Assembly (NCBI GenBank): GCA_003249025.1
Contig: QBMH01000005.1
Location: forward strand, 1 to 64,000
Source of the DNA: Leptolyngbya sp.
GTDB lineage: Bacteria; Cyanobacteriota; Cyanobacteriia; Leptolyngbyales; Leptolyngbyaceae
Length of the DNA stretch: 64,000 nucleotides
Direction of reading: 5' to 3'
Shown: positions 1,595 to 24,226 of the stretch, one piece after another
Layout of the letters: every line of letters begins with the position of its first letter
How positions within the stretch are numbered: position 1 is the stretch's first letter
Made by a program: the position numbers and the translations under genes
Notes under the pieces: model-generated
The model's input: only the letters and a program-made list of their open reading frames with translations
The model's database searches: none
What the model was told of the DNA's origin: nothing

Positions 1595-4500
1595 TTACAT
1601 TGCAAACTGTAATTGAGAGCCTTGGTCTGTTTTAATCACTTCAATGCGAGACTGAAAGGCTTCTTTAAAGTGGGGAACGTGGGTGACGGTGAGAATGCAG
1701 GCGAAGTCGGAGGCGATCGCGTTGATGGCAGAAATCAGGCGATCGCAGCCTTCGACATCTTGGGTGCCAAACCCTTCATCGACGATCAACATTTGCAGTG
1801 CAGTGCCCGATCGCTGCGCCAAAAATCGGGCTAGTGCTAGCCGAATCGCAAAGTTAACCCGAAAGGCTTCCCCGCCAGAGTAGGTTTCGTAGGGGCGCGT
1901 TCCTTGGGTGTCGGCAATTACAATGTCTAGTGTTTCGCTCCACTTAGCCTGTTTCAGCTTTGCCTTAGAGCTAGCGCCCGACCGTTGCGTAATAAATTGA
2001 ATATGCAGTTGATTGGCGCTGAGCCGTCCTAAAATCCGGTTGGTTTCGGCTTCAAGCTGGGGCAGGGCGTTTTCAATCATCAATGCCTGGATGCCATTTT
2101 TACCGAATGCCTGAGCGACTTCTTGATAAACACGCTGTTGATGCGCCAGTGCTTGAAGCTGTAGGGCGATCGCGGCTTGCTGTTGAGTTAAAATGGCAAG
2201 CTGTTGCCGTTGCTGCTGGAGCCGACCTAACGCTGAAAGCTGTTGGTCTAACTCGCTGCGACGGATTCTGATACGGTTTTCTGTGGCATCAATGAAAGAA
2301 CGGCGATCGCAAGTCTCTTGAAGTTGCTGTTGGAGCGTCTTAATTTGTGCTTGAGAGATTTTAAGGCTACTTTGACGCTTGTTTAAGCTAGAGTTTAAGT
2401 CTGCGAATCGACGCTGAAATTGCGGATATTGCTGCTGATATTTATAAAGCTCTTGGTAGTGCAATTGATAAGGTTGAGCTTGTCTTAGAGCGACTCGCAA
2501 AGCGTTGTGCTGATCTAAGTCATAGCCAATGTCTGCAAGCTGTTGATTAAAGTGCGCTAAAGCAGTTGCATAGTCTATTGTAAATTGCTCAATTTGGCTT
2601 TCTAATTCAACCTGTTGAGCCTGAAGTTCGGGTTGCCGCTGGGCAAGGTTTGCCTGACGCTGCCGTGCCTGTTTAATTTCTGCCTGTTTAATTTCTGCCC
2701 ATCGCCAGCGATCGACTTGTCCGCGTGCCAAGGCGTGATCTTTTTCGTCATAGTTTAGCTGGTGCAGGCGATGATCAATTTGCGCCAACTCTTCGCTGAG
2801 ATCTGCGGCATAGTTCCCCATATTCAGCGTATGTTCTAACTTTGCCGCTTCCATTTCAAGCTGGCTCAGGTTTGCCTGACCCGAAATGGTGGATTGCAAT
2901 TGTTCTTGGAGTTGCCCTCGGCGTTCTAATACAGTGGTGTATTCGCCTAAGTCTTTGTCTACTTCGCGATATTCCTGTCGCAAAATCTGAATTTCTCGCT
3001 CCGAGGCGGCGAGTTGCTCTCGAATGACCCAAATCTCTTGCAAGATGTCTGATCGCGTGGTCTGGTGCTTTTCTAAGACCAAACTCCAGTGATGCTCATC
3101 CAAGGGGCGATCGCACAGCGGACAGGGAGGATAAGTGTGACCCATCTCTTCAGGATTAGCAACCTCTTGCTTTAGCCAATAAATCTTCTGATCCACCTCT
3201 GCCAGTTGGGTTTCATAGTCGCGCTGTCGTTCTTGCAGTTTCTCCATGAAGTTGCGTCGCTCTACGCCTTTTTCCCGCACTTGCTGCAAATAGTTGCGCT
3301 GGGATTCTAGCTGGGCAATGCGATCGCTGACCGACATAACTGCCTGCTGCAATTCGGGCTGGCGCTTTTGTTGATGGCTAAGTTGATGGGCGGAAGCGCG
3401 CAGTTCTTCCAGCCGTGCCGACAATCGAGTATGGCTACGATCAAGCTGTTGCTGGATCTGTTGACGGCGCTGGAATAAAGGGGCTGCCTGGAATTGAAGC
3501 TGATCCAGCCGGGTTAAATCAGTCCGGGATTGCTGTAATTCTTTTAGCGCTTTTTCTACCTCTGGGGCTTTACGGAGACTATGTTGAATTTCTTGCTCTT
3601 GCTGAGTTAGGGCTTCAAGCTGTGCCTGGGTATGCTGAAGGTGTCGATCCAGTTCGGTAATTTTTTCCTGCTGTTGCTGCTGATACTGCTGTTGTTCGGT
3701 TTGAACCCGTTGATCAGTTTTGAATTTGGCAGAGAACTGTTCTTCTTGTAACTGCAAAGTCTGAAACTGGAGATAGCCAGCCGCGATCGCCTCGGCTTGT
3801 CGTAATAAGGCTTCTATTTCTTGCTGCTGCTGCTGAGTGGCTGCAAGTTCCTGTTGAAAGCGCTGACAGTCTTGCTCCAGGTTTTTTTCTTGCTGCTGCT
3901 GCCAAGTGAGCTGTTGCTGCCAAGTGAGGCGCTGCTGCTGGCTGACCTGAAGCGCTTGCAGCATGGCTTCATCTTCGATTTGCTGGCGTTGCATCTCCGC
4001 CAAGGTCGCTTCTGCGATCGCCTGCTCTGTTGCGATCGCGGTTTGTTGCTGCAATTGTTCTGCGATCGCCGCCAAATTGCGTTCCAGCAGATCAACTTGT
4101 CCTTTTAGCTGCCGCGATTGATCTTTCGCCTTTTCCGCCAACTCATCATATTGATTGAGCTTGAGTAAATCTGCCAGAATTTGTTTGCGTTCCGTTGGGC
4201 GCTTCACCATGAACTCATCGGCTCGACCTTGCCGCAGATACGCCGAATTAATGAAAGTGTCGTAATCCAGCTTCAAATGCTCCACAATTAACTGCTGCGT
4301 TGCCCGAACGCCCTTCGCTGTCAGCGATCGAAAGCGAAGAGAAGAAGTTGAATTTTGTTCGCGTAGCGTTGACCTAGGAGATATTTTGAGTTCTAAGTTT
4401 TGAGTTTCATCTTCCGACCCTTGCCCCCTGACCCCTGGCTTCTGTCCCCTTGCCTCTTCCATCGCCACTTGAAATTCTAGCGTTGTGCCTTGAGCGCGTT

Positions 4501-4918: not shown

Positions 4919-5464
4919 TCAACTTTTTAATTGATAAAATGTTAATGCTGTATTTCCATAAGTTTTTTGACGGCATACTTCTAAGGGTGTTGGAGTGGAG
5001 AAATCCGATCGCTTTGGATTGTGTTCTACTGCCAATTCACCGTTTGCAGCCAGCAGGTTATAGTCTGCGATCTCGTCCAGCACGGGTTGATATAACTCGC
5101 TGGCATAGGGTGGATCAAAATAAATCAGATCGAATTGCTGTCCCGATAAGGTGGGCAGTTTTTTGATCACATCGCCGCGAATCAATTGAAAAGTTTGTCC
5201 CTCTGTCGCCACCTGCTGCCAGTTTTGTTCAATCACAGACCAAGCGCGAGACGATTGTTCAATCCCTACAACAAGTGAAGCACCACGACACAGCGCTTCT
5301 GCACCCATGGCACCACTGCCAGCACACAGATCCAGCCAGCGACACTGAGCGATCGCTCCTTGCCACATGTTAAACACTGCTTCCCGCACCATCGATTGAG
5401 TCGGGCGAGTATCTTTGCCCGACAGCGTTTTAAGGGCGCGATTGCCATAGATACGGAGAGTCAT
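4919..5464 (-). CDS. rsmD: 16S rRNA (guanine966-N2)-methyltransferase RsmD
   Basis: Rossmann-fold SAM-dependent enzyme that methylates the exocyclic N2 of G966 in 16S rRNA during 30S assembly. The 181-residue length is normal. Visible motifs are an RPTQSMVREAVFN N-terminal signature, the SAM-binding LDLCAGSG at residues 44-51, and the N-methyltransferase catalytic motif DPPY at 117-120, preceded by FDLIYF. The start overlaps the stop of hisH by four bases, so hisH and rsmD are likely transcribed together, although the pair has no obvious functional link. Confidence 0.94.
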   Translation of the reverse strand: MTLRIYGNRALKTLSGKDTRPTQSMVREAVFNMWQGAIAQCRWLDLCAGSGAMGAEALCRGASLVVGIEQSSRAWSVIEQNWQQVATEGQTFQLIRGDVIKKLPTLSGQQFDLIYFDPPYASELYQPVLDEIADYNLLAANGELAVEHNPKRSDFSTPTPLEVCRQKTYGNTALTFYQLKS

Positions 5465-8300: not shown

Positions 8301-8421
8301 AGGATAAAAGTTAAAAAGAGGTGTCCGTCCCAACCTTGATGGCAGTAGTAATTCTCTCTACAAGAGCATTTTGCGAAACATCCTTGCAGAGAGATGCGAT
8401 TGGTTTATGTCTCCAAGGCTT

Positions 8422-9789
8422 TTATTCCTCTTCGTCTCCGTAATCCTCCTCGCTTTCCTCTTCCTCGCTTTCCTCTTCCTCCTCGCTTTCCTCTTCCTCG
8501 CTTTCCTCTTCCTCGCTTTCCTCTTCCTCCTCGCTTTCCTCTTCTTCTTCTTCCTCGCTGCTATCTTCTATTTCTTCTTCATACTCCTCGCTTTCTTCCT
8601 CACTAGATTCTTCCTCTGAGTATTCTTCGGTCTCTTCGTAGCTAGATTCCACGGTTTCAGTCGATTCTTCAGACTCTTCAGTTTCCTCCGAGTATTCTTC
8701 AGAAGTTTCTTCTGAGTATTCTTCAGAAGTTTCTTCTGAGTATTCTTCAGAGGTCTCTTCACTTTCCTCGTAGTCAGCGTCTACGGTTTCAGTCGATTCC
8801 TCATATTCTTCAGAGTCGTCAGTTTCTTCCGCTTCATCACTCGACTCATCCTCGTACTCGACATAATCGTAGGTATAAGCTGATTCTGTATCTGTATCTT
8901 CTGGTTCATCGCCAAACAGGTCGAAAATCGCATCCGCAACGGCAAAATCGTCTTCGACCCATACGCCCTGACTAAAATCTAGATCGCTCACCGCACGGAC
9001 TGCCCATAGCTCCTGACAGAACTCAGGATTAGTCATGTAGCTATAAGGCACATAGCAGTAGCCCTTTTCGCCCCAGTCTTCGCCCCAAGAATTACGCACG
9101 ATGAACGCTTGCGATTGGTCAGAATAACCCACGCACAGCATGGCGTGCCAGCCGTGTTCTGCCCGTCCTTGTTCAGAAGGGTCAGGCACCGGAACAATGC
9201 CGCGCTTTTGGGCTTTGTCAAACGAATGGAAAAGCTTTAGTCCTAGTGCAAAGGGAAAGCCTTCTGCAAGACAACTCTTCATGGCGGTTAGGTCACACTC
9301 AATTTCTTGAGCTTCTTGCACCAAAAAATTACGGGCTTCTCCGTAGGCGGCATCGTTGGGTTTCACGTTAACTTGAGTTTCATCGTATGCCCAAGTTGCT
9401 TCGCTACAGGCTCCATGTTCTTGCAGCACTTGAATGGCAGAGACAATCATGCAACCGACATCTTCTTTGCTGTTTTCGTAGGCACGGGCGTTGTAGTAAA
9501 TAAACAAGCGGCTGACATCGCCAGCACTGCCATTTGCCCGTTTTGCGAGATATTCGTAGGCTCCAGCCATGGAGTTGGCAACACAACTGCTGAGTTGAGA
9601 TTGGTTTTCAACGGCGGTCATGTAGGGGCGTAAATCAACGCGGGGAGGCAATTGGTTAGACTGGAAGCGATCGCTAGAGTATTTTTGAGAGTTTGGTGGT
9701 TTTTTGCCATTGGCGGGTTGAAAGCCACCAAATTTAATCGTTTGTCCGGTTGTGCGATTGGTCAGGGTCGTGATTTTATGACGTGCCAT
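8422..9789 (-). CDS. C1 (papain-like) cysteine peptidase with acidic repeat tail
   Basis: Residues about 45-285 form a C1 peptidase domain. Gln63 (oxyanion hole) and Cys69 lie in NQSQLSSCVANS, His215 in EHGWHAMLCVGY and Asn233 in VRNSWGEDWG, so all four catalytic positions are present. There is no signal peptide or recognisable propeptide, which suggests a cytoplasmic enzyme or unusual export. Residues about 295-455 are almost purely Glu, Ser, Thr and Tyr and include three tandem 8-residue units (SEETSEEY). The tail should be disordered and strongly negative. Related bacterial C1 proteins exist, but I know no function for the tail. Confidence 0.88.
   Translation of the reverse strand: MARHKITTLTNRTTGQTIKFGGFQPANGKKPPNSQKYSSDRFQSNQLPPRVDLRPYMTAVENQSQLSSCVANSMAGAYEYLAKRANGSAGDVSRLFIYYNARAYENSKEDVGCMIVSAIQVLQEHGACSEATWAYDETQVNVKPNDAAYGEARNFLVQEAQEIECDLTAMKSCLAEGFPFALGLKLFHSFDKAQKRGIVPVPDPSEQGRAEHGWHAMLCVGYSDQSQAFIVRNSWGEDWGEKGYCYVPYSYMTNPEFCQELWAVRAVSDLDFSQGVWVEDDFAVADAIFDLFGDEPEDTDTESAYTYDYVEYEDESSDEAEETDDSEEYEESTETVDADYEESEETSEEYSEETSEEYSEETSEEYSEETEESEESTETVESSYEETEEYSEEESSEEESEEYEEEIEDSSEEEEEEESEEEEESEEEESEEEESEEEEESEEEESEEDYGDEEE
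8690..8760. repeat. 24-bp tandem repeat in the peptidase tail
   Basis: Three head-to-tail 24-bp units (8690-8713, 8714-8737 and 8738-8760, the last with a few changes) encode an acidic octapeptide. Because 24 is a multiple of three, copy number can vary by slippage without frameshift. The wider region 8440-8620 is also built from degenerate TCCTCT triplets. Confidence 0.85.
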
Positions 9790-16184: not shown

Positions 16185-17405
16185 TTAAAGTTTGCCGCCA
16201 ACGAGAAATCCTATCATCATCAAAAATAGACGGTAGTAGGGAAGCCATCCCGCTTTGGGAGCGCAGAACACAAGATAGACAGCCGAGATCGCTGGAGCCA
16301 GCGTCAGCATCAGAAAAATCGGTGAAAGCAGGGGAAATGCGGCAATCACATATCGAGAGGCGACCCGAACGATCGCAGCAGTGGCAATCCATAGAGCCGC
16401 ATCACCGATGCGATTGATCGGTTGGCGTGGTAACTCTAGAGATCGTCCATCGCGCAACCGTCCGCGCAATTCTCGTAAATAACGGCGGAGCGTGATAGGT
16501 GGCGAAGAAGAATGAGAACGGGGGCGATCGCGCAGTAAATTCTGATTAGCAGCAACGCTTTTATTCCAGGTGGGGGCACACTCAGTTTTAGGGGTCTGCG
16601 ATGGCTCTCCATCCCGAAGCTCTCTAGGCGAACCGTTCCACGCTTGAGTGGGCGAATGGCTTAAGGGCGATGATATTGGAACCGAAGGTTGCAGGATCGA
16701 AGATTGCCCATGAAGACGATTGGCTGTCTCAGAGGCACGGGGCACTTCTGAGGACGCGATCAAAGAACCTGCTTCATTCAGATGTAAACCCAGTTCATGC
16801 AAGCGTTGCTGAATGCTTCCCTTCTGAAACGTTAAGCTTTCCACCTCCTGTTCTGCGATCGAAGTTGGAGATTGCCACTGATTTTTAATGGGTTGAATGG
16901 GTGGTAATTGCTGATTTACCTGCCGTTCAACCAATGGAGTTGAGGCTGCCGATTGGGTTGCAGGCTGCGTTGTTAAATTGGCAGGACTGCTATTTGCGCT
17001 TCCCGGAGGGATTCCTGTAGAAAGCGTCGCTGACGGTTCATAAATCGCGTCTTTACTAGCGCGATCAGCAAGAATTTGATGAAGTCGCTTTGCATGATCT
17101 TCAAGTCGTTTCAACTCATCTGCATACTGGTAGGGCGGAGTTGATTGACTCTGCCGAACTGTTTTAAACGGTTTTTTGCTGCCCGTAGCAGCTCGTGTTT
17201 TTCCTTCCGTTGCACTTCGCTGCTTACGTTTAGAGGCAGTATAGGAAAGACGTTCATCTTCAGTAATGGTATTTTGAATAGGCATTGGCACCACATTGCT
17301 ATCCTCCTCTATCGGCGCAGAACCATACTCATCTGAATAAAGCTGCCGTGCTAAAGGATGATGAAAGGGTAGGGATGACTGAATCCGTGGTTTTTGTTCT
17401 TCCAT
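16185..17405 (-). CDS. Conserved membrane protein with disordered N-terminal region
   Basis: The 406-residue protein has a long Ser/Pro/Gln-rich, probably disordered region (about 1-310) containing short predicted helices, one of them near LKRLEDHAKRLHQILADR. The C-terminal 90 residues hold two or three hydrophobic helices (AALWIATAAIVRVASRYVIAA, then LLSPIFLMLTLAPAISAVYLV and a final segment). I chose the ATG at 17405; the open frame continues upstream to 17492 but reads Cys-rich sequence unlike a real N-terminus. It appears operonic with the following small membrane protein. Function unknown. Confidence 0.65.
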   Translation of the reverse strand: MEEQKPRIQSSLPFHHPLARQLYSDEYGSAPIEEDSNVVPMPIQNTITEDERLSYTASKRKQRSATEGKTRAATGSKKPFKTVRQSQSTPPYQYADELKRLEDHAKRLHQILADRASKDAIYEPSATLSTGIPPGSANSSPANLTTQPATQSAASTPLVERQVNQQLPPIQPIKNQWQSPTSIAEQEVESLTFQKGSIQQRLHELGLHLNEAGSLIASSEVPRASETANRLHGQSSILQPSVPISSPLSHSPTQAWNGSPRELRDGEPSQTPKTECAPTWNKSVAANQNLLRDRPRSHSSSPPITLRRYLRELRGRLRDGRSLELPRQPINRIGDAALWIATAAIVRVASRYVIAAFPLLSPIFLMLTLAPAISAVYLVFCAPKAGWLPYYRLFLMMIGFLVGGKL

Positions 17406-17604
17406 AGTTGAGGATGACCACCTGTGCAAACAACGGGTGCTTGCAGCATTAGTACACCGCAGACACCCACAAATTAAGTACAAGTGTACCATGATTTTGA
17501 TCTAAAATGATCTCTTGAGAAATCAGTTTTACTGAAGCATCGCCCTTCATCCTGTTGCCTTGTCTAACCTCCACTGCTAAATTTCCTCTTTAAAAGTGAA
17601 TCTT

Positions 17605-19104
17605 ATGACCCTCACTGCCGCTCCAATCCACCTGCCTGTTCTAGATGAGTTGATTGATGGGTTACCCAACATTTCAGGTTGGGAAGATATCCTCGAAACT
17701 GTCACCAGCCAGCAAACACCAGTATTTTTGCCAATCACAAATCTACAGCTTGGGTCAATAAAATCTGCCTTTGCGATCGCCCTGCACATGCACCAGCCCA
17801 CCATTCCCGCCGGATGGAATGGCGCGTTGATCAATAACTTGCAGCAGATGTTTGAGCATCCTAACGAAGGCGACAACCACAACGCGGACGTATTTGCCTG
17901 GTGCTACTCCCGCATGGCTGACTTCATTCCCGAACTGGTGTCGCAAGGCTGCAACCCCCGCGTCATGCTCGATTATTCTGGTAATTTGCTGTGGGGCTTG
18001 CGGCAAATGGGGCGCGGCGATGTGCTGGATAACCTGAAACGGATTACCTGCGATCGCACCTATCAGCCCTACGTGGAATGGCTGGGCACGATGTGGGGAC
18101 ATGCTGTGGTGCCTTCCACGCCAATTCCTGATATCAAGTTACACATCCAAGCTTGGCAGCATCACTTTGCCGCGATTTTTGGCTGGGATGCGATCGCCCG
18201 TGTCAAAGGCTTTTCCCCTCCAGAAATGCACCTGCCCAACCATCCCGATACGCTCTATGAATTCATCAAAGCGCTGAAAGAATGCGGCTATCGCTGGATG
18301 ATTGTCCAAGAACACTCCGTTGAAATCCTCTCAGGCGAATCGTTAGGCGATAAACATTTGCCTCATCGCTTGATTGCGCGGAACTCCACTGGCGAAACCA
18401 CCAGCCTAACGGTGTTGGTCAAAACTCAAGGATCAGACACTAAACTGGTTGCCCAAATGCAGCCCTACTACGAAGCCAAATCTCAGTCTCGCGATCGCAG
18501 TCTCAGCGGTATCTCCATTCCGCCATTGGTCACCCAAATCAGCGATGGCGAAAACGGCGGCGTGATGATGAATGAGTTTCCCTCTGCCTTCAAAAAGGTG
18601 TGGCATGAAATGGGGCAAAACCCCGATGTTGTGGGCATGACGGGCACTGAATATTTGGAACTAATTGAAGCGGCTGGAGTCAATCCTGAAGATTATCCCA
18701 CCTGTCAACCAGCAGGTCAGCACCAAATTTGGCAGCGTGTTTCACCGGAGAGCGTTACTCCTGCCGCAGTAGCAGCCGCGATCGCCGATGCCAAACAAGC
18801 TAACCCCAACTTTCATATGGAAGGCTCCTCTTGGACGAGTCACATGAGTTGGGTACAAGGCTATGAAAACGTCCTCACACCCATGAATCAACTCAGTGCC
18901 CGGTTTCACGAAAAGTTTGATCCACGGTTCACCAAGCAACCCAATCAGCCCGATCAAATCCCTACTACCCGCACTGCTGAATACCGCCAAGCCCTACTCT
19001 ATAATCTTTTGCTGCAAACCAGTTGTTTCCGCTATTGGGGACAAGGCACTTGGACTGATCACGCCCGTTCCCTGTTTGAAAAAGGCATGGAAACCATTGG
19101 ATAA
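17605..19104 (+). CDS. Glycoside hydrolase family 57 protein
   Basis: GH57 enzymes act on alpha-glucans (amylase, branching and 4-alpha-glucanotransferase activities). This 499-residue protein has the first conserved motif ALHMHQPTIPAGW (about 60-72), a large (beta/alpha)7-type domain, and a candidate nucleophile Glu in GFSPPEMHLPNH (about residue 206). The ending CFRYWGQGTWTDHA is characteristic of a cyanobacterial subgroup whose substrate is not established. The start is the ATG at 17605; a GTG lies nine bases upstream. Its last 81 bp are duplicated at 19936-20016. Confidence 0.88.
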   Translation: MTLTAAPIHLPVLDELIDGLPNISGWEDILETVTSQQTPVFLPITNLQLGSIKSAFAIALHMHQPTIPAGWNGALINNLQQMFEHPNEGDNHNADVFAWCYSRMADFIPELVSQGCNPRVMLDYSGNLLWGLRQMGRGDVLDNLKRITCDRTYQPYVEWLGTMWGHAVVPSTPIPDIKLHIQAWQHHFAAIFGWDAIARVKGFSPPEMHLPNHPDTLYEFIKALKECGYRWMIVQEHSVEILSGESLGDKHLPHRLIARNSTGETTSLTVLVKTQGSDTKLVAQMQPYYEAKSQSRDRSLSGISIPPLVTQISDGENGGVMMNEFPSAFKKVWHEMGQNPDVVGMTGTEYLELIEAAGVNPEDYPTCQPAGQHQIWQRVSPESVTPAAVAAAIADAKQANPNFHMEGSSWTSHMSWVQGYENVLTPMNQLSARFHEKFDPRFTKQPNQPDQIPTTRTAEYRQALLYNLLLQTSCFRYWGQGTWTDHARSLFEKGMETIG

Positions 19105-19128
19105 GTCATTAGAAAAGGAGTACTGACT

Positions 19129-19881
19129 ATGAAACTTCTCAAATTGCCCTGGTTGATGGCTTACGCTGGGATCGTTCTGTTGGCTTGCCAAAGCTGGACG
19201 CTTCCAGGATGGGCAGATTCCCCTCCTGCTGTGCAGACGAGTGAACAACTAGCAGGTACGTGGCAGGTGGAGTTGGGTGATCAGACGGGCATGATCGTCA
19301 TTACTCCAACAGGTCAGGTTTATATCCTTAATAAAACGGCTGAAGGAGAGATGAAGGCGGTTGAAATTGGTCGAGTTGTTCAGAAGCTCTCACCAACGGC
19401 GACGCTGCCGTCTAATGCTAAAGTTACCAGCTTGGCTGAGCGATTTATCCAACAGTCCATTCAGGCGAAACAATCAGAAGCAAAGCAATATATCGGTTCC
19501 ATGAATCGGTCAGAGCAGGCTCTTTTTCTGGAAACCGATCGCTTCACAACAAGCTTAAATGCCTTAGGGTTCGGTATCAAGCCTGAAACTGAAAATTACC
19601 GCTATCGTATTTTTCTACTGCAAAACCCGCGTACAAACAGACCTGAATTTAAAAAGGCGGTTTGGTCGATCGCACTGCCAAAGAAGCCAAACTTGAAGAG
19701 CTATGCAGGAGTTGTTTGGGTGACAAATACCACTAAAACGAACGAAAGCACAACTGCCACTATTCTCTGTGAATCCAATCAGCCGACAGCGCAGATCCCT
19801 CCAGCACCAACCTTTCAGTCAGGCGAAAATGGGCTAGAGGCTAACTGTCCCAAGGGTTTTTCTCTTTTACAATTACGATAG
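19129..19881 (+). CDS. Secreted type IV pilin-like G/H family protein
   Basis: The 250-residue protein has an N-terminal signal sequence (MKLLKLPWLMAYAGIVLLAC), possibly a lipoprotein box ending at Cys20. The C-terminal half matches the pilin G/H-like domain common in cyanobacteria: KQYIGSMNRSEQALFLE, then LGFGIKPETENYRYRI. It lacks the N-terminal methylation motif of true pilins. The ribosome-binding site AAAAGGAGT precedes the ATG. It begins 24 bases after the GH57 gene and is followed by a duplicate of the GH57 tail, so it looks inserted or duplicated into this position. Confidence 0.78.
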   Translation: MKLLKLPWLMAYAGIVLLACQSWTLPGWADSPPAVQTSEQLAGTWQVELGDQTGMIVITPTGQVYILNKTAEGEMKAVEIGRVVQKLSPTATLPSNAKVTSLAERFIQQSIQAKQSEAKQYIGSMNRSEQALFLETDRFTTSLNALGFGIKPETENYRYRIFLLQNPRTNRPEFKKAVWSIALPKKPNLKSYAGVVWVTNTTKTNESTTATILCESNQPTAQIPPAPTFQSGENGLEANCPKGFSLLQLR

Positions 19882-19935
19882 GGGTGATAGATCTCAATCT
19901 ACGCCGGAAAAGTAGACAGGAACGATTGCCCCTTT

Positions 19936-20016
19936 TGCTTCCGCTATTGGGGACAAGGCACCTGGACTGATCACGCCCGTTCCCTATTTGAAAAAGGCAT
20001 GACCGCGATTGGCTGA
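19936..20016 (+). pseudogene. Duplicated GH57 3' end (81-bp remnant)
   Basis: These 81 bases align without gaps to 19024-19104, the last 27 codons of the GH57 gene including the stop. The first 69 bases differ at only three or four positions, and the encoded ending is CFRYWGQGTWTDHA... with GMTAIG in place of GMETIG. No start or upstream GH57 sequence is present. The rest of the 19882-20197 gap (316 bp) shows no gene; a direct repeat of TTGCATGACT lies at 20181-20202, just before the histidine kinase start. Confidence 0.85.
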
Positions 20017-20197
20017 AAAGAAATTATATCTCTAGAGATAGATCACAGGATCGGACATTGGATAGAAGATCTAATGTGGCGGAATGCTAGTGGAGCCGCG
20101 TGTATGAGTTCAGAAAACGCTGCATAATAAAACGAGCTTTTCTCCTAAGAACCTTCTACATCAGGCATCCTATCCTACAATTGCATGACTCAATTGC

Positions 20198-23100
20198 ATG
20201 ACTGAAGCCCTGCCGAAACCAACTGTGATGAATGACGCATTCAATTCGATAGATGAAACTTCCCTAGAAAATCTAGAAGCAATTCCTATAGGGATGCCTG
20301 TGCCAAGCTTCGCTAATGCTTCACCAATCACTCCTCTGCTTCCCGACGAAACTGCCCGATTAAAAGCACTCAAACGCTACAACATTCTGGATACACCGCC
20401 GGAACTAGCGTTCGATCGCATTACCTCCTTGGCAGCCCGTTTATTTGATGTGCCGATCGCCCTCGTTTCGTTAATCGATGCATCAAGAGGTTGGTTCAAG
20501 TCTTGCTACGGCTTCGACCTGCGGGAAGTGCAGCGAGATGCCACCATTTGCAGCTTAGTGCTTCTATCTGATGAAGTTTTAGTCATTCCCGACACGCGAC
20601 AGGACGATCGCCTCACCTGTAATCCATTTGTGCAAAGCGAACCGGGACTACGCTTTTATGCAGGTGCCCCATTGATTACTCAGGATGGTTTCAACTTGGG
20701 CACCCTCTGTTTATTAGATACAAAACCGCGCCAACCTTGGACCAGCGAACAGCAGGCAACTTTAGCTGATCTGGCTGCCGTAGTGATGGATGCCCTAGAG
20801 CTACGCTTAGCGACTCACAAAATTTCTCAAATTGATACAGCATTAGTAGAGGTGACTAAAAGTGTTGCCGTTGTGGTCGGTGATGCATTTTTTGAGATCT
20901 TAGTGCAACGTTTTACAAAAGTGCTGGGAGTCGATTATGCCTACATTGGATTAATTCAAGACAATGACCCAGAGGTAATTCGCACGATCGCCACCTGTGC
21001 GAAAGGCGAAATCATCGATAACTTTGACTATTCGCTGCGGCATACCCCCTGCGGAATGGTGATCCAAGAGCGAAAATTATGTTGCCATCCCCATAGTGTT
21101 CAAACCTTGTTTCCCCATGCGCCCTTACTGGCACCTTTGGGCGTGGAGAGCTATGCAGCAATTCCGATCTTTGACTCGGCTGGCATCCCGCTGGGAGTTT
21201 TAGGCATCATGCATAGCAAGCCGTTGGAAACTGTGCAGCTTGTAGAATCCCTGTTGACGATTTTTGCGCTTCGGGTTGCCACCGAACTAGAGCGTCAGCA
21301 GACCGAAGCCGTTCGACAACAATCACAACGAAATTTAGAACATCAGGTGATCCAGCGAACCGCCGCCCTCTCTAAAACTAATCAATTATTGTCGTTAGAA
21401 GTGATCGATCGCCAGCAAGCCGAAGCGGCCCTGCAACAAGAACAGGAAGTGCTGAAGGTGCTGCTAGATAAGGTGCAGGCAGGGATTGTTGCTTGCAATG
21501 CTGAGGGCATTTTGACCTTGTTTAATCAAGCAGCACGAGACTTTCATGGCTTGCCAAAGCAGTCTTTACCACCGGAAAAATGGGCAGAGCATTATGACCT
21601 CTACCTGCCGGATGGCAAAACTCGGATGGATAAACGGGACATCCCGCTATTTCGGGCATTGCAAGGAGAGATCGTCAACCAGGTTGAGATGGTGATTGCA
21701 CCCAAGCAGGGCATCGCGCGATCGCTGGTGGCGAGTGGAAAAACCCTCACCGATGACCAAGGCAACAAACAGGGCGCAGTCGTGGTGATGCATGACATTA
21801 CCGAGCGCAAGCAGGCAGAAGCAGTGCGCTTACGTCTTGCAGAAGAACGGACAGAGCTAATCCAGCAGCAAGTTCAAGAACAGACCGCCCGCTTAAAGGC
21901 TGAAGCAGAACAGCGGCGATCGGCATTTTTAGTAGAAATTAGCACGGCGCTGTCTGCTTCACTAGACTATGAATCGACCTTGACCAACGTTGCCAATCTG
22001 GTGGTGCCTTATTTTGCAGATTGGTGCGCGATCGACCTGGTGCAAAATCAATCAATTGAGCGAGTTGCAGTCGCTCACTGTGATCCAGAGAAAGTGAAAT
22101 TAGGCTGGGAACTCCATCGAAAATATCCTAAACAGTTGACTGATGCGGAGGGAGTTTCTAAGGTGCTGCGAACGGGACAGGCTGAAATCGTAGCGGAGAT
22201 TCCAGAAGGGGCGATCGCGGCAACTGCCAAAAGTGCCGAGCATCTGCAAATTTTATCTGAACTCGGCTTAAAGTCTTGTATTATCTCGCCGCTAATCGTT
22301 CGGGGACAGATTTTGGGCGCAATTTCCTTTGTGACGGCTGAATCCGATCGCCGATATAGTCAGGCTGACTTAGCGTTGGCAGATGATATTGTTCATCGCG
22401 CTGCCATTTCGATCGATAATGCCCGACTTTATCGAGACGCTCAACAGGCACAACAAGCCGCCGAACGAACCACCGAACGTATTGCTCGGCTTCAATCCGT
22501 TACGGCTGCATTTTCTGAGTCGGTGACTCCTGCCCAAGTGGCTGAGGTGATCGTCGATCAAGGAATTGCGGCTTTGAATGCTAACTTTGCCATGGTTGCG
22601 CTGCTCGATGAAATCACCAGCGAACTAGAAGTCGTGCGGGTCGTTGGTGGTGGTGGTGCCCTAGATGAGAAGTGGCAGCGGTTTTCGCTCCAGGCTCCTG
22701 TGCCCCTCGCAAAAGCGGTGCGAACGGGGCAACCCATTTGGGCAGAACCCTCGGAGGTTCGAGCCGTCCATTATCCACACTTGGCTGACATGTATGCCCA
22801 ACAAAATTTTGGTGCCTGGATTTCTATCCCGCTCATGGTCGAAGGTCGGGCTTTTGGCGGCATCTCCTTAGGGTTTAACAAACCGCAGCAGTTGGATGAA
22901 GAGCAGCAAACCTTTATTCTGTCGCTTGCCCAACAATGTGCCCAAGCGATCGCCCGTGCTCATCTTTATGAATCTGAACAAATCGCCCGGAATGATGCAG
23001 TTCGCGAAGCAGCCCGTAGTGCCAAGGCAAACCGCGTCAAAGATGAGTTTCTGGCGGTGTTGTCTCACGAATTGCGAACGCCCCTGAACCCGATCTTGGG

Positions 23101-24226
23101 CTGGGCAGGTCTTCTTCGCACCGGCAAATTAGATACGGCAAAAACAGCCCATGCCTTAGAAACAATTGAGCGCAATGCCAAACTGCAAACTCAATTGATT
23201 GAAGATTTGTTGGATGTGTCTCGCATTTTGCAAGGCAAGCTTCAGTTAAACATTGCGCCTGTAAATCTGGCATTTACCATTCGATCAGCGCTTGAAACCG
23301 TGCAATTAGCCGCAGACGCAAAGGGAATCGAACTCAGAACCGAGATAGAAGAAGATAGCACCACTATAAAACACGCTTCATCTATTGCGGCTCACCCTTC
23401 ACGACTGATGGTTTTAGGAGATTCAGTGCGGCTCCAGCAAATAATTTGGAACTTGCTCACCAATGCTATCAAGTTTACGGATGCGGGTGGTCAAGTAAAA
23501 ATTCGGCTAAGCGCCAGCGATCGCCATGCTCAGATTCAAGTCATAGATACGGGCAAAGGCATTCATCCAGATTTTTTGCCCCATGTATTTGAATACTTTC
23601 AGCAAGCTGATTCAACCACAACTCGTCAGTTTGGCGGATTAGGATTAGGGCTGGCGATCGTTCGTCACTTAGTGGAGTTGCATGGCGGGACGGTGCAAGC
23701 AGATAGTTTGGGAGAAGGCAAAGGCGCTACCTTTACCGTCCAGCTAACGCTATTAGAAAGTCAGAAATTGGCATCTGAGGATGATGCAAACAATCTTTCT
23801 TTTTCAAGCTCCTCTTTTCCCCCACCCCTGGATGGAATTCGAGTTTTGCTGGTGGATGATGACGCAGATGCACGAGATTTAGTCGCGTTTATCTTAGAAC
23901 AAGCAGGGGCGATCGTCACCGTGGTAGATTCCGCGATCGCCGCTTTAAAGTGCTTCTCCCAAGTAAAACCAGACTTGCTGATTAGTGATATTGGGATGCC
24001 AGGAAAAGATGGCAACGGACTGATTCAAGAGATTCGCACCCTGCCCCCTGCCGAAGGTGGACAAGTTCCCGCGATCGCCCTGACTGCCTATGCCGGAGAA
24101 ATTGATCAGCAGCAAGCCATCGCCGCCGGATTTGAAAGGCACATGACCAAACCTGTCGATGCGGAAGCATTGGTGCAGGCGATCGCGCAGTGGGTCAACC
24201 CGTCTACAGGGCAATCGGGGCAATGA
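20198..24226 (+). CDS. Hybrid sensor histidine kinase with multiple GAF and PAS domains
   Basis: A 1342-residue cytoplasmic sensor. Domains in order: GAF (about 50-205), GAF (225-375), coiled coil, PAS (415-545), coiled coil, GAF (585-745), GAF (765-925), HisKA with DEFLAVLSHELRTPLNP (phospho-His about 957), HATPase with NLLTNAIKF and DTGKGI plus GGLGLGLAIV, and a receiver with VLLVDDD (about 1216), phospho-acceptor Asp in ISDIGMPG (about 1263) and MTKPVD. No transmembrane segment is seen. I did not see the Cys-containing chromophore motif of phytochrome-type GAFs clearly, so the ligand is unknown. Its 3' end overlaps the convergent phytyltransferase gene by 23 bp. Confidence 0.93.
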   Translation: MTEALPKPTVMNDAFNSIDETSLENLEAIPIGMPVPSFANASPITPLLPDETARLKALKRYNILDTPPELAFDRITSLAARLFDVPIALVSLIDASRGWFKSCYGFDLREVQRDATICSLVLLSDEVLVIPDTRQDDRLTCNPFVQSEPGLRFYAGAPLITQDGFNLGTLCLLDTKPRQPWTSEQQATLADLAAVVMDALELRLATHKISQIDTALVEVTKSVAVVVGDAFFEILVQRFTKVLGVDYAYIGLIQDNDPEVIRTIATCAKGEIIDNFDYSLRHTPCGMVIQERKLCCHPHSVQTLFPHAPLLAPLGVESYAAIPIFDSAGIPLGVLGIMHSKPLETVQLVESLLTIFALRVATELERQQTEAVRQQSQRNLEHQVIQRTAALSKTNQLLSLEVIDRQQAEAALQQEQEVLKVLLDKVQAGIVACNAEGILTLFNQAARDFHGLPKQSLPPEKWAEHYDLYLPDGKTRMDKRDIPLFRALQGEIVNQVEMVIAPKQGIARSLVASGKTLTDDQGNKQGAVVVMHDITERKQAEAVRLRLAEERTELIQQQVQEQTARLKAEAEQRRSAFLVEISTALSASLDYESTLTNVANLVVPYFADWCAIDLVQNQSIERVAVAHCDPEKVKLGWELHRKYPKQLTDAEGVSKVLRTGQAEIVAEIPEGAIAATAKSAEHLQILSELGLKSCIISPLIVRGQILGAISFVTAESDRRYSQADLALADDIVHRAAISIDNARLYRDAQQAQQAAERTTERIARLQSVTAAFSESVTPAQVAEVIVDQGIAALNANFAMVALLDEITSELEVVRVVGGGGALDEKWQRFSLQAPVPLAKAVRTGQPIWAEPSEVRAVHYPHLADMYAQQNFGAWISIPLMVEGRAFGGISLGFNKPQQLDEEQQTFILSLAQQCAQAIARAHLYESEQIARNDAVREAARSAKANRVKDEFLAVLSHELRTPLNPILGWAGLLRTGKLDTAKTAHALETIERNAKLQTQLIEDLLDVSRILQGKLQLNIAPVNLAFTIRSALETVQLAADAKGIELRTEIEEDSTTIKHASSIAAHPSRLMVLGDSVRLQQIIWNLLTNAIKFTDAGGQVKIRLSASDRHAQIQVIDTGKGIHPDFLPHVFEYFQQADSTTTRQFGGLGLGLAIVRHLVELHGGTVQADSLGEGKGATFTVQLTLLESQKLASEDDANNLSFSSSSFPPPLDGIRVLLVDDDADARDLVAFILEQAGAIVTVVDSAIAALKCFSQVKPDLLISDIGMPGKDGNGLIQEIRTLPPAEGGQVPAIALTAYAGEIDQQQAIAAGFERHMTKPVDAEALVQAIAQWVNPSTGQSGQ

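Follow-up and report, generated by a model that had tools for sequence, protein, structure and literature searches.

A truncated GH57 gene end beside a gene for a predicted exported Pilin_GH protein in Leptolyngbya sp.: a probable footprint of gene capture

Introduction

How did a gene for a predicted exported protein come to lie between two copies of the end of another gene? The question is raised by a locus of Leptolyngbya sp., located in a 64,000-nt stretch of DNA (contig QBMH01000005.1, positions 1 to 64,000; hereafter the window), where a GH57 gene is followed by an open reading frame and then by a second, truncated GH57 end. An earlier note on this DNA had recorded the second end as an 81-bp copy at 19936-20016, with few changes and with the stop included, and had proposed that it is a footprint of the arrival of a secreted, "pilin-like" gene. 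Here the repeat, the gene that it encloses and the corresponding loci of other cyanobacteria are described, and the possible origins of the arrangement are weighed.

The GH57 locus and its direct repeat

The features of the locus are listed in Table 1. The GH57 end (copy A) and its downstream counterpart (copy B) form a direct repeat of 78 nt, 19023-19100 versus 19935-20012, at an offset of 912 nt, with 70/78 positions identical in an ungapped alignment (90%). The runner-up match of this stretch elsewhere in the 64-kb window reaches 38/78, and the best one on the opposite strand 36/78; a search with the GH57 tail found copy B at 2.1e-10 (92%). In the GH57 frame copy A reads CFRYWGQGTWTDHARSLFEKGMETIG and copy B reads CFRYWGQGTWTDHARSLFEKGMTAIG, each closed by its stop. 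The two copies differ at 10 positions over 81 nt, confirming the copy as it had been recorded: three differences fall in the first 66 nt (22 codons) and are all synonymous third positions, and seven are found in the last 15 nt. No start codon was found upstream of copy B in its open frame, and the stretch ahead of it, 19882-19934, shows no GH57 similarity above chance.

Copies A and B are the only pair of direct repeats of at least 40 nt in the window, apart from a low-complexity region at 8421-8847. The latter is made of imperfect repeats of the TTTCCTCTTCCTCGC type, and its minus-strand reading would give a Glu/Ser-rich stretch. A dispersed repeat of about 55 nt, with a consensus near GGGATTCCTGTGGAAAGCTTCGCTAACGTTTCACGAATC and copies 77-82% alike, is present within coding regions of both genomes of the genus that were compared, at 16996-17052 and 20279-20336 of the window and at 4968-5020 and 18701-18757 of a congener locus (L161); one of these copies is part of the N-terminus of the histidine kinase. 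The GH57 gene itself is intact, and its start is likely the in-frame ATG at 17605.

Table 1. Features of the GH57 locus (positions in the window)
Feature	Position	Strand	Basis
GH57 gene, intact, 502 aa from GTG	17596..19104	+	PF03065 E=9.9e-07; 91% amino acid identity with the congener G001
Copy A, last 27 codons of GH57 with TAA stop	19024..19104	+	direct repeat, translation
Spacer with AAAAGGAG ribosome-binding-like site	19105..19128	+	sequence
Probably acquired gene, 250-aa predicted exported protein, C-terminal Pilin_GH domain	19129..19881	+	PF16734 E=1.9e-30
Stretch between the probably acquired gene and the right-hand joint	19882..19934	+	no GH57 similarity
Copy B, truncated GH57 tail, codon 477 to TGA stop	19935..20016	+	repeat, tail match, translation
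GH57-kinase intergenic flank, native	20017..20197	+	alignable in part with that of the congener (TCTAGAGATAGAT ... GATAGAAGAT)
Histidine kinase gene (GAF, PAS, HisKA, HATPase, receiver)	20198..24226	+	Pfam; 78.7% DNA identity to G001 C449

The gene between the copies

The gene enclosed by the two copies starts 24 nt past the GH57 stop, behind the AAAAGGAG site, and this spacing, together with the site, gives it a position resembling that of a second gene in an operon. The Pilin_GH domain (PF16734) of its product covers residues 115-241 and scores 106 bits against a curated cut-off of 28.9. The N-terminus, MKLLKLPWLMAYAGIVLLACQSW, carries a lipobox-compatible signal, MKLLKLPWLMAYAGIVLLAC (VLLAC), and lacks the GFTLIELL-type prepilin motif that is present in homologues (L084-L086). 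The description as "pilin-like" thus holds for the domain and fails for the N-terminus, where a lipobox-like sequence takes the place of a prepilin leader. Identity as a canonical type IV pilin was considered and rejected, since neither a prepilin leader nor an N-terminal helix of GFTLIEL type is found.

The best full-length relatives of the protein are 33-39% identical to it, and those with similar extra N-terminal regions (L033, L034, L038) 33-36%. No close relative of the gene was found among about 390 cyanobacterial genomes, which gave only short, domain-level DNA matches. A donor with GH57 followed by this gene was likewise not found, and the retrieved loci of the protein's relatives contain no GH57.

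Comparison with a congener

One further genome of the genus (G001) was compared. Its locus consists of the GH57 gene (91% identity at the amino acid level, 88% at the DNA level) followed directly by the same histidine kinase; there is one GH57 tail, with neither an inserted gene nor a second tail. Among the arrangements that the earlier note had suggested looking for in related genomes, the congener therefore represents GH57 alone, and this state, without the gene and without the second tail, supports the idea that the repeat records the arrival of the gene. The sequence 3' of copy B partly aligns with the GH57-kinase intergenic region of the congener, whereas the sequence 3' of copy A does not; copy B is therefore the one contiguous with the native flank. 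In principle the difference between the two genomes could also be due to a loss in the congener, the only one compared; an insertion in the lineage of the present genome is favoured, because the other members of the family that were searched have no second downstream tail.

The native flanks of the two genomes are of unequal length, the distance from copy B to the shared motif being 18 nt, versus about 135-200 nt in the congener. The congener's intergenic region also contains a hairpin-like inverted repeat, TGAAGAGTAGATA ... TATCTACTCTTCA (L003, about 3080-3150), which is missing from the window.

Gene-end remnants in other cyanobacteria

Searches with the tail of GH57 and with its complete protein sequence covered 390 genomes from the class, of which about 300 have GH57. 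Remnants of GH57 downstream of an intact GH57 gene and on the same strand were found in three further cases, all in distant cyanobacteria. In G164, GH57 and its remnant are separated by a PIN-domain gene with a small ORF behind it, likely a toxin-antitoxin pair; the remnant comprises 120 nt at 92% and a further-upstream piece of GH57, and thus carries an internal deletion. The differences between the intact gene and the remnant of this genome are mostly synonymous (6 of the 8 codons), and the remnant retains the family-typical D where the intact gene has E. A truncated Uma2-type gene, covering only profile positions 94-168 of 172, adjoins the remnant on the opposite strand (L172, 4440-4715), another sign of gene turnover at that place. 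The remnant of G151 (148 nt at 80%) has lost its stop and is decayed; the intervening gene is the usual neighbour in two congeners, indicating that this remnant marks a break of synteny and not a simple insertion. In G389, a fragment of the GH57 body, 140 nt at 81%, is found beyond about 1.4 kb.

As a control, aroA was taken from the same window and searched in 386 genomes; owing to cross-matches of murA type, only genomes with at least three matches were examined. The remnant footprint was found again in G111 (83% over 253 nt, with one ORF between) and in G364 (97% over 276 nt), where small genes intervene and a MazF-like ORF follows further on; G207 has a local duplication of the tail without cargo. 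Two successive aroA 3' remnants are present downstream of aroA in G364 (contig 86, 45500-54000; L188), and 368 nt of the cargo-tail unit recur there at 94.6%, as if genes had been added stepwise at the aroA end. Since aroA shows the same footprint twice, we no longer consider GH57 a special hot spot; the gene-tail remnant is a general scar of gene capture and is not specific to GH57. Every remnant seen lies downstream of the intact gene, presumably reflecting selection that keeps the promoter-proximal copy intact.

Age and origin of the second tail

Over the first 66 nt, copy B is intermediate between copy A and the tail of the congener: three changes separate A from B, two separate B from the congener and five separate A from the congener, all of them synonymous and none private to B. 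In the last 15 nt copy A is the nearer to the congener, with 3 differences versus 6 for copy B. The dS of GH57 between the window and the congener is 0.52, and about 14 changes would be expected in 66 nt if copy B had been neutral for half of that divergence. All three tails carry the genus-typical DHARSLFEKGM, where the other relatives listed are mostly of YAREL type. Orthologues vary at the very end of the protein, and the TAIG that precedes the stop of copy B resembles the terminal AAIG and VAIG of other genera.

The simplest reading of these comparisons is that tail B would be no long-decayed remnant, having probably served until recently as the end of a functional GH57 gene of the same genus. 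On the same reading, tails A and B would derive from two lineages joined by recombination, rather than from an old duplication in which one copy decays; indeed, the 10/81 differences and their orthologue-type pattern suggest two lineages. As for which tail is the resident one, copy B may be favoured by its contiguity with the native flank and by the first 66 nt, and copy A by the last 15 nt. A test for mosaicism of GH57 against the congener, with dS calculated in six segments, gave no clear breakpoint. The earlier proposal that a diverged GH57 tail came in together with the gene agrees with these data in that the divergence would predate the juxtaposition of the two tails; its direction may have to be reversed, and copy A may be the imported tail, because it is copy B that adjoins the native GH57-kinase flank.

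Proposed mechanism and alternative explanations

In the reading that we prefer, with a probability of roughly 0.7, recombination with its anchor in the 3' end of GH57 brought the gene at 19129-19881 into the genome, and copy B is the tail that was displaced or truncated in the process. The donor, a lineage within the genus, would have had the gene 24 nt behind a GH57 3' end, and this segment would have been joined to the resident copy by homologous recombination within GH57. Closure of the other side would have needed no homology, taking place either directly or through a circularised fragment integrated by a single crossover; the result would be an intact GH57 upstream, with a truncated tail beside the native flank. 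In this one-sided event copy A would come wholly or partly from the donor, and copy B would be wholly or partly the displaced tail of the resident, most likely without a function. A stretch of 78 nt offers little length for homologous recombination, so the two sequences may at first have overlapped further.

The earlier note had also envisaged a tandem duplication. A duplicated GH57 unit, or an old pair of GH57 paralogues around the acquired gene, could have left the present arrangement if the second copy later lost its body and kept its last 27 codons; the internally deleted remnant of G164, with its upstream piece, and the body fragment of G389 indicate that longer second copies did exist in those genomes. 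In the window, however, no other piece of GH57 remains ahead of copy B, whose first 22 codons are undecayed and would require a very recent loss of the body, and none of the family genomes searched has two adjacent full GH57 copies. Such an origin is unlikely. When mobile elements integrate into the 3' ends of genes such as icd, the target stays intact with a tail that the element supplies, and the old tail comes to lie at the element's far end. The remnant of a site-specific integrative element with the GH57 3' end as its attachment site, supplying A and displacing B, would accordingly give the picture expected; nevertheless, the insert of about 0.9 kb contains no integrase, the window has no tRNA gene, and the remnants vary in length (78, 148 and 120 nt plus the additional piece), that of G389 deriving from the gene body, all of which makes this origin very unlikely.

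Copy B keeps its reading frame, with only synonymous differences over 22 codons, as might be expected of a functional element, be it a 3' UTR, a terminator, a promoter or a small ORF. Scans of copy B, however, gave no Rfam match and no promoter- or terminator-like site, its frame lacks a start codon, the congener manages without it, and the parallel copy of G151 has decayed. According to the earlier note, such an element would be indicated if distant cyanobacteria had the arrangement too and selection acted on their second copy. The arrangement does recur, with cargo and lengths that differ from case to case, and these differences, the decay of some copies (G151) and the aroA cases do not indicate a functional element; we regard it as extremely improbable. 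Least credible of all is an error of assembly: the genome is a draft of 407 contigs, but A and B differ at 10/81 positions, so that neither is a collapsed copy of the other, and the region is internal to a 68-kb contig. The genome, in which the 1-kb stretch occurs once, is 99% complete with 0.37% contamination.

Relation to known systems

The proposed capture at the GH57 end resembles what has been named "insertion with long target duplication" (Nobusato et al. 2000), which, in the accounts given in PMC1643837 and PMC3031569, emerged from the comparison of two strains of Helicobacter pylori and concerns mainly restriction-modification genes. As in those accounts, where the insert is absent from a relative and is flanked by long, variable direct repeats of the target, the insert described here is absent from the congener, and the 78-nt sequence found at both of its ends is single there. 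Compared with the cases described in those accounts, the cargo is a predicted exported Pilin_GH protein and the repeat is a gene end; moreover, the two copies differ by 12%, which is not what a fresh duplication of one sequence would give.

Single-crossover integration of circularised DNA in E. coli produces gene-end duplications of 109-950 bp (PMC3240628), with an intact-length and a truncated copy of the gene end around the insert, as in the window; that precedent is a laboratory plasmid event, while here integration of this kind is proposed. Homology-facilitated illegitimate recombination, known from Acinetobacter, Streptococcus and Pseudomonas, normally deletes resident DNA (PMC3240628). 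It shares with the present locus inserts of about 1 kb, and may share a homologous joint on one side and a non-homologous one on the other: the left joint of the insert lies within GH57, and before 19935 there is no GH57 homology. Unlike the usual outcome of that process, the resident GH57 end is duplicated and not deleted.

Conclusions

The locus presents a probable gene capture in which both joints are visible and for which a relative without the insert is available. It would be a tentative and rather doubtful generalization that the 3' ends of conserved genes are sites at which cyanobacteria repeatedly capture small cargo, such as toxin-antitoxin pairs and genes for exported proteins, by one-sided recombination with DNA of close relatives. 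The truncated tails would then provide a countable record, amounting to about 1% or less of the genomes for each gene searched (for GH57, three cases besides the window in about 300; for aroA, 2/386), all downstream and on the same strand. The kind of footprint is already known, as insertion with long target duplication, and because it recurs at more than one gene it is of some modest use beyond this locus as a capture marker. The similar scars at aroA suggest that gene-tail remnants, if scanned genome-wide, could give the number and age of captures lacking any mobile-element signature.
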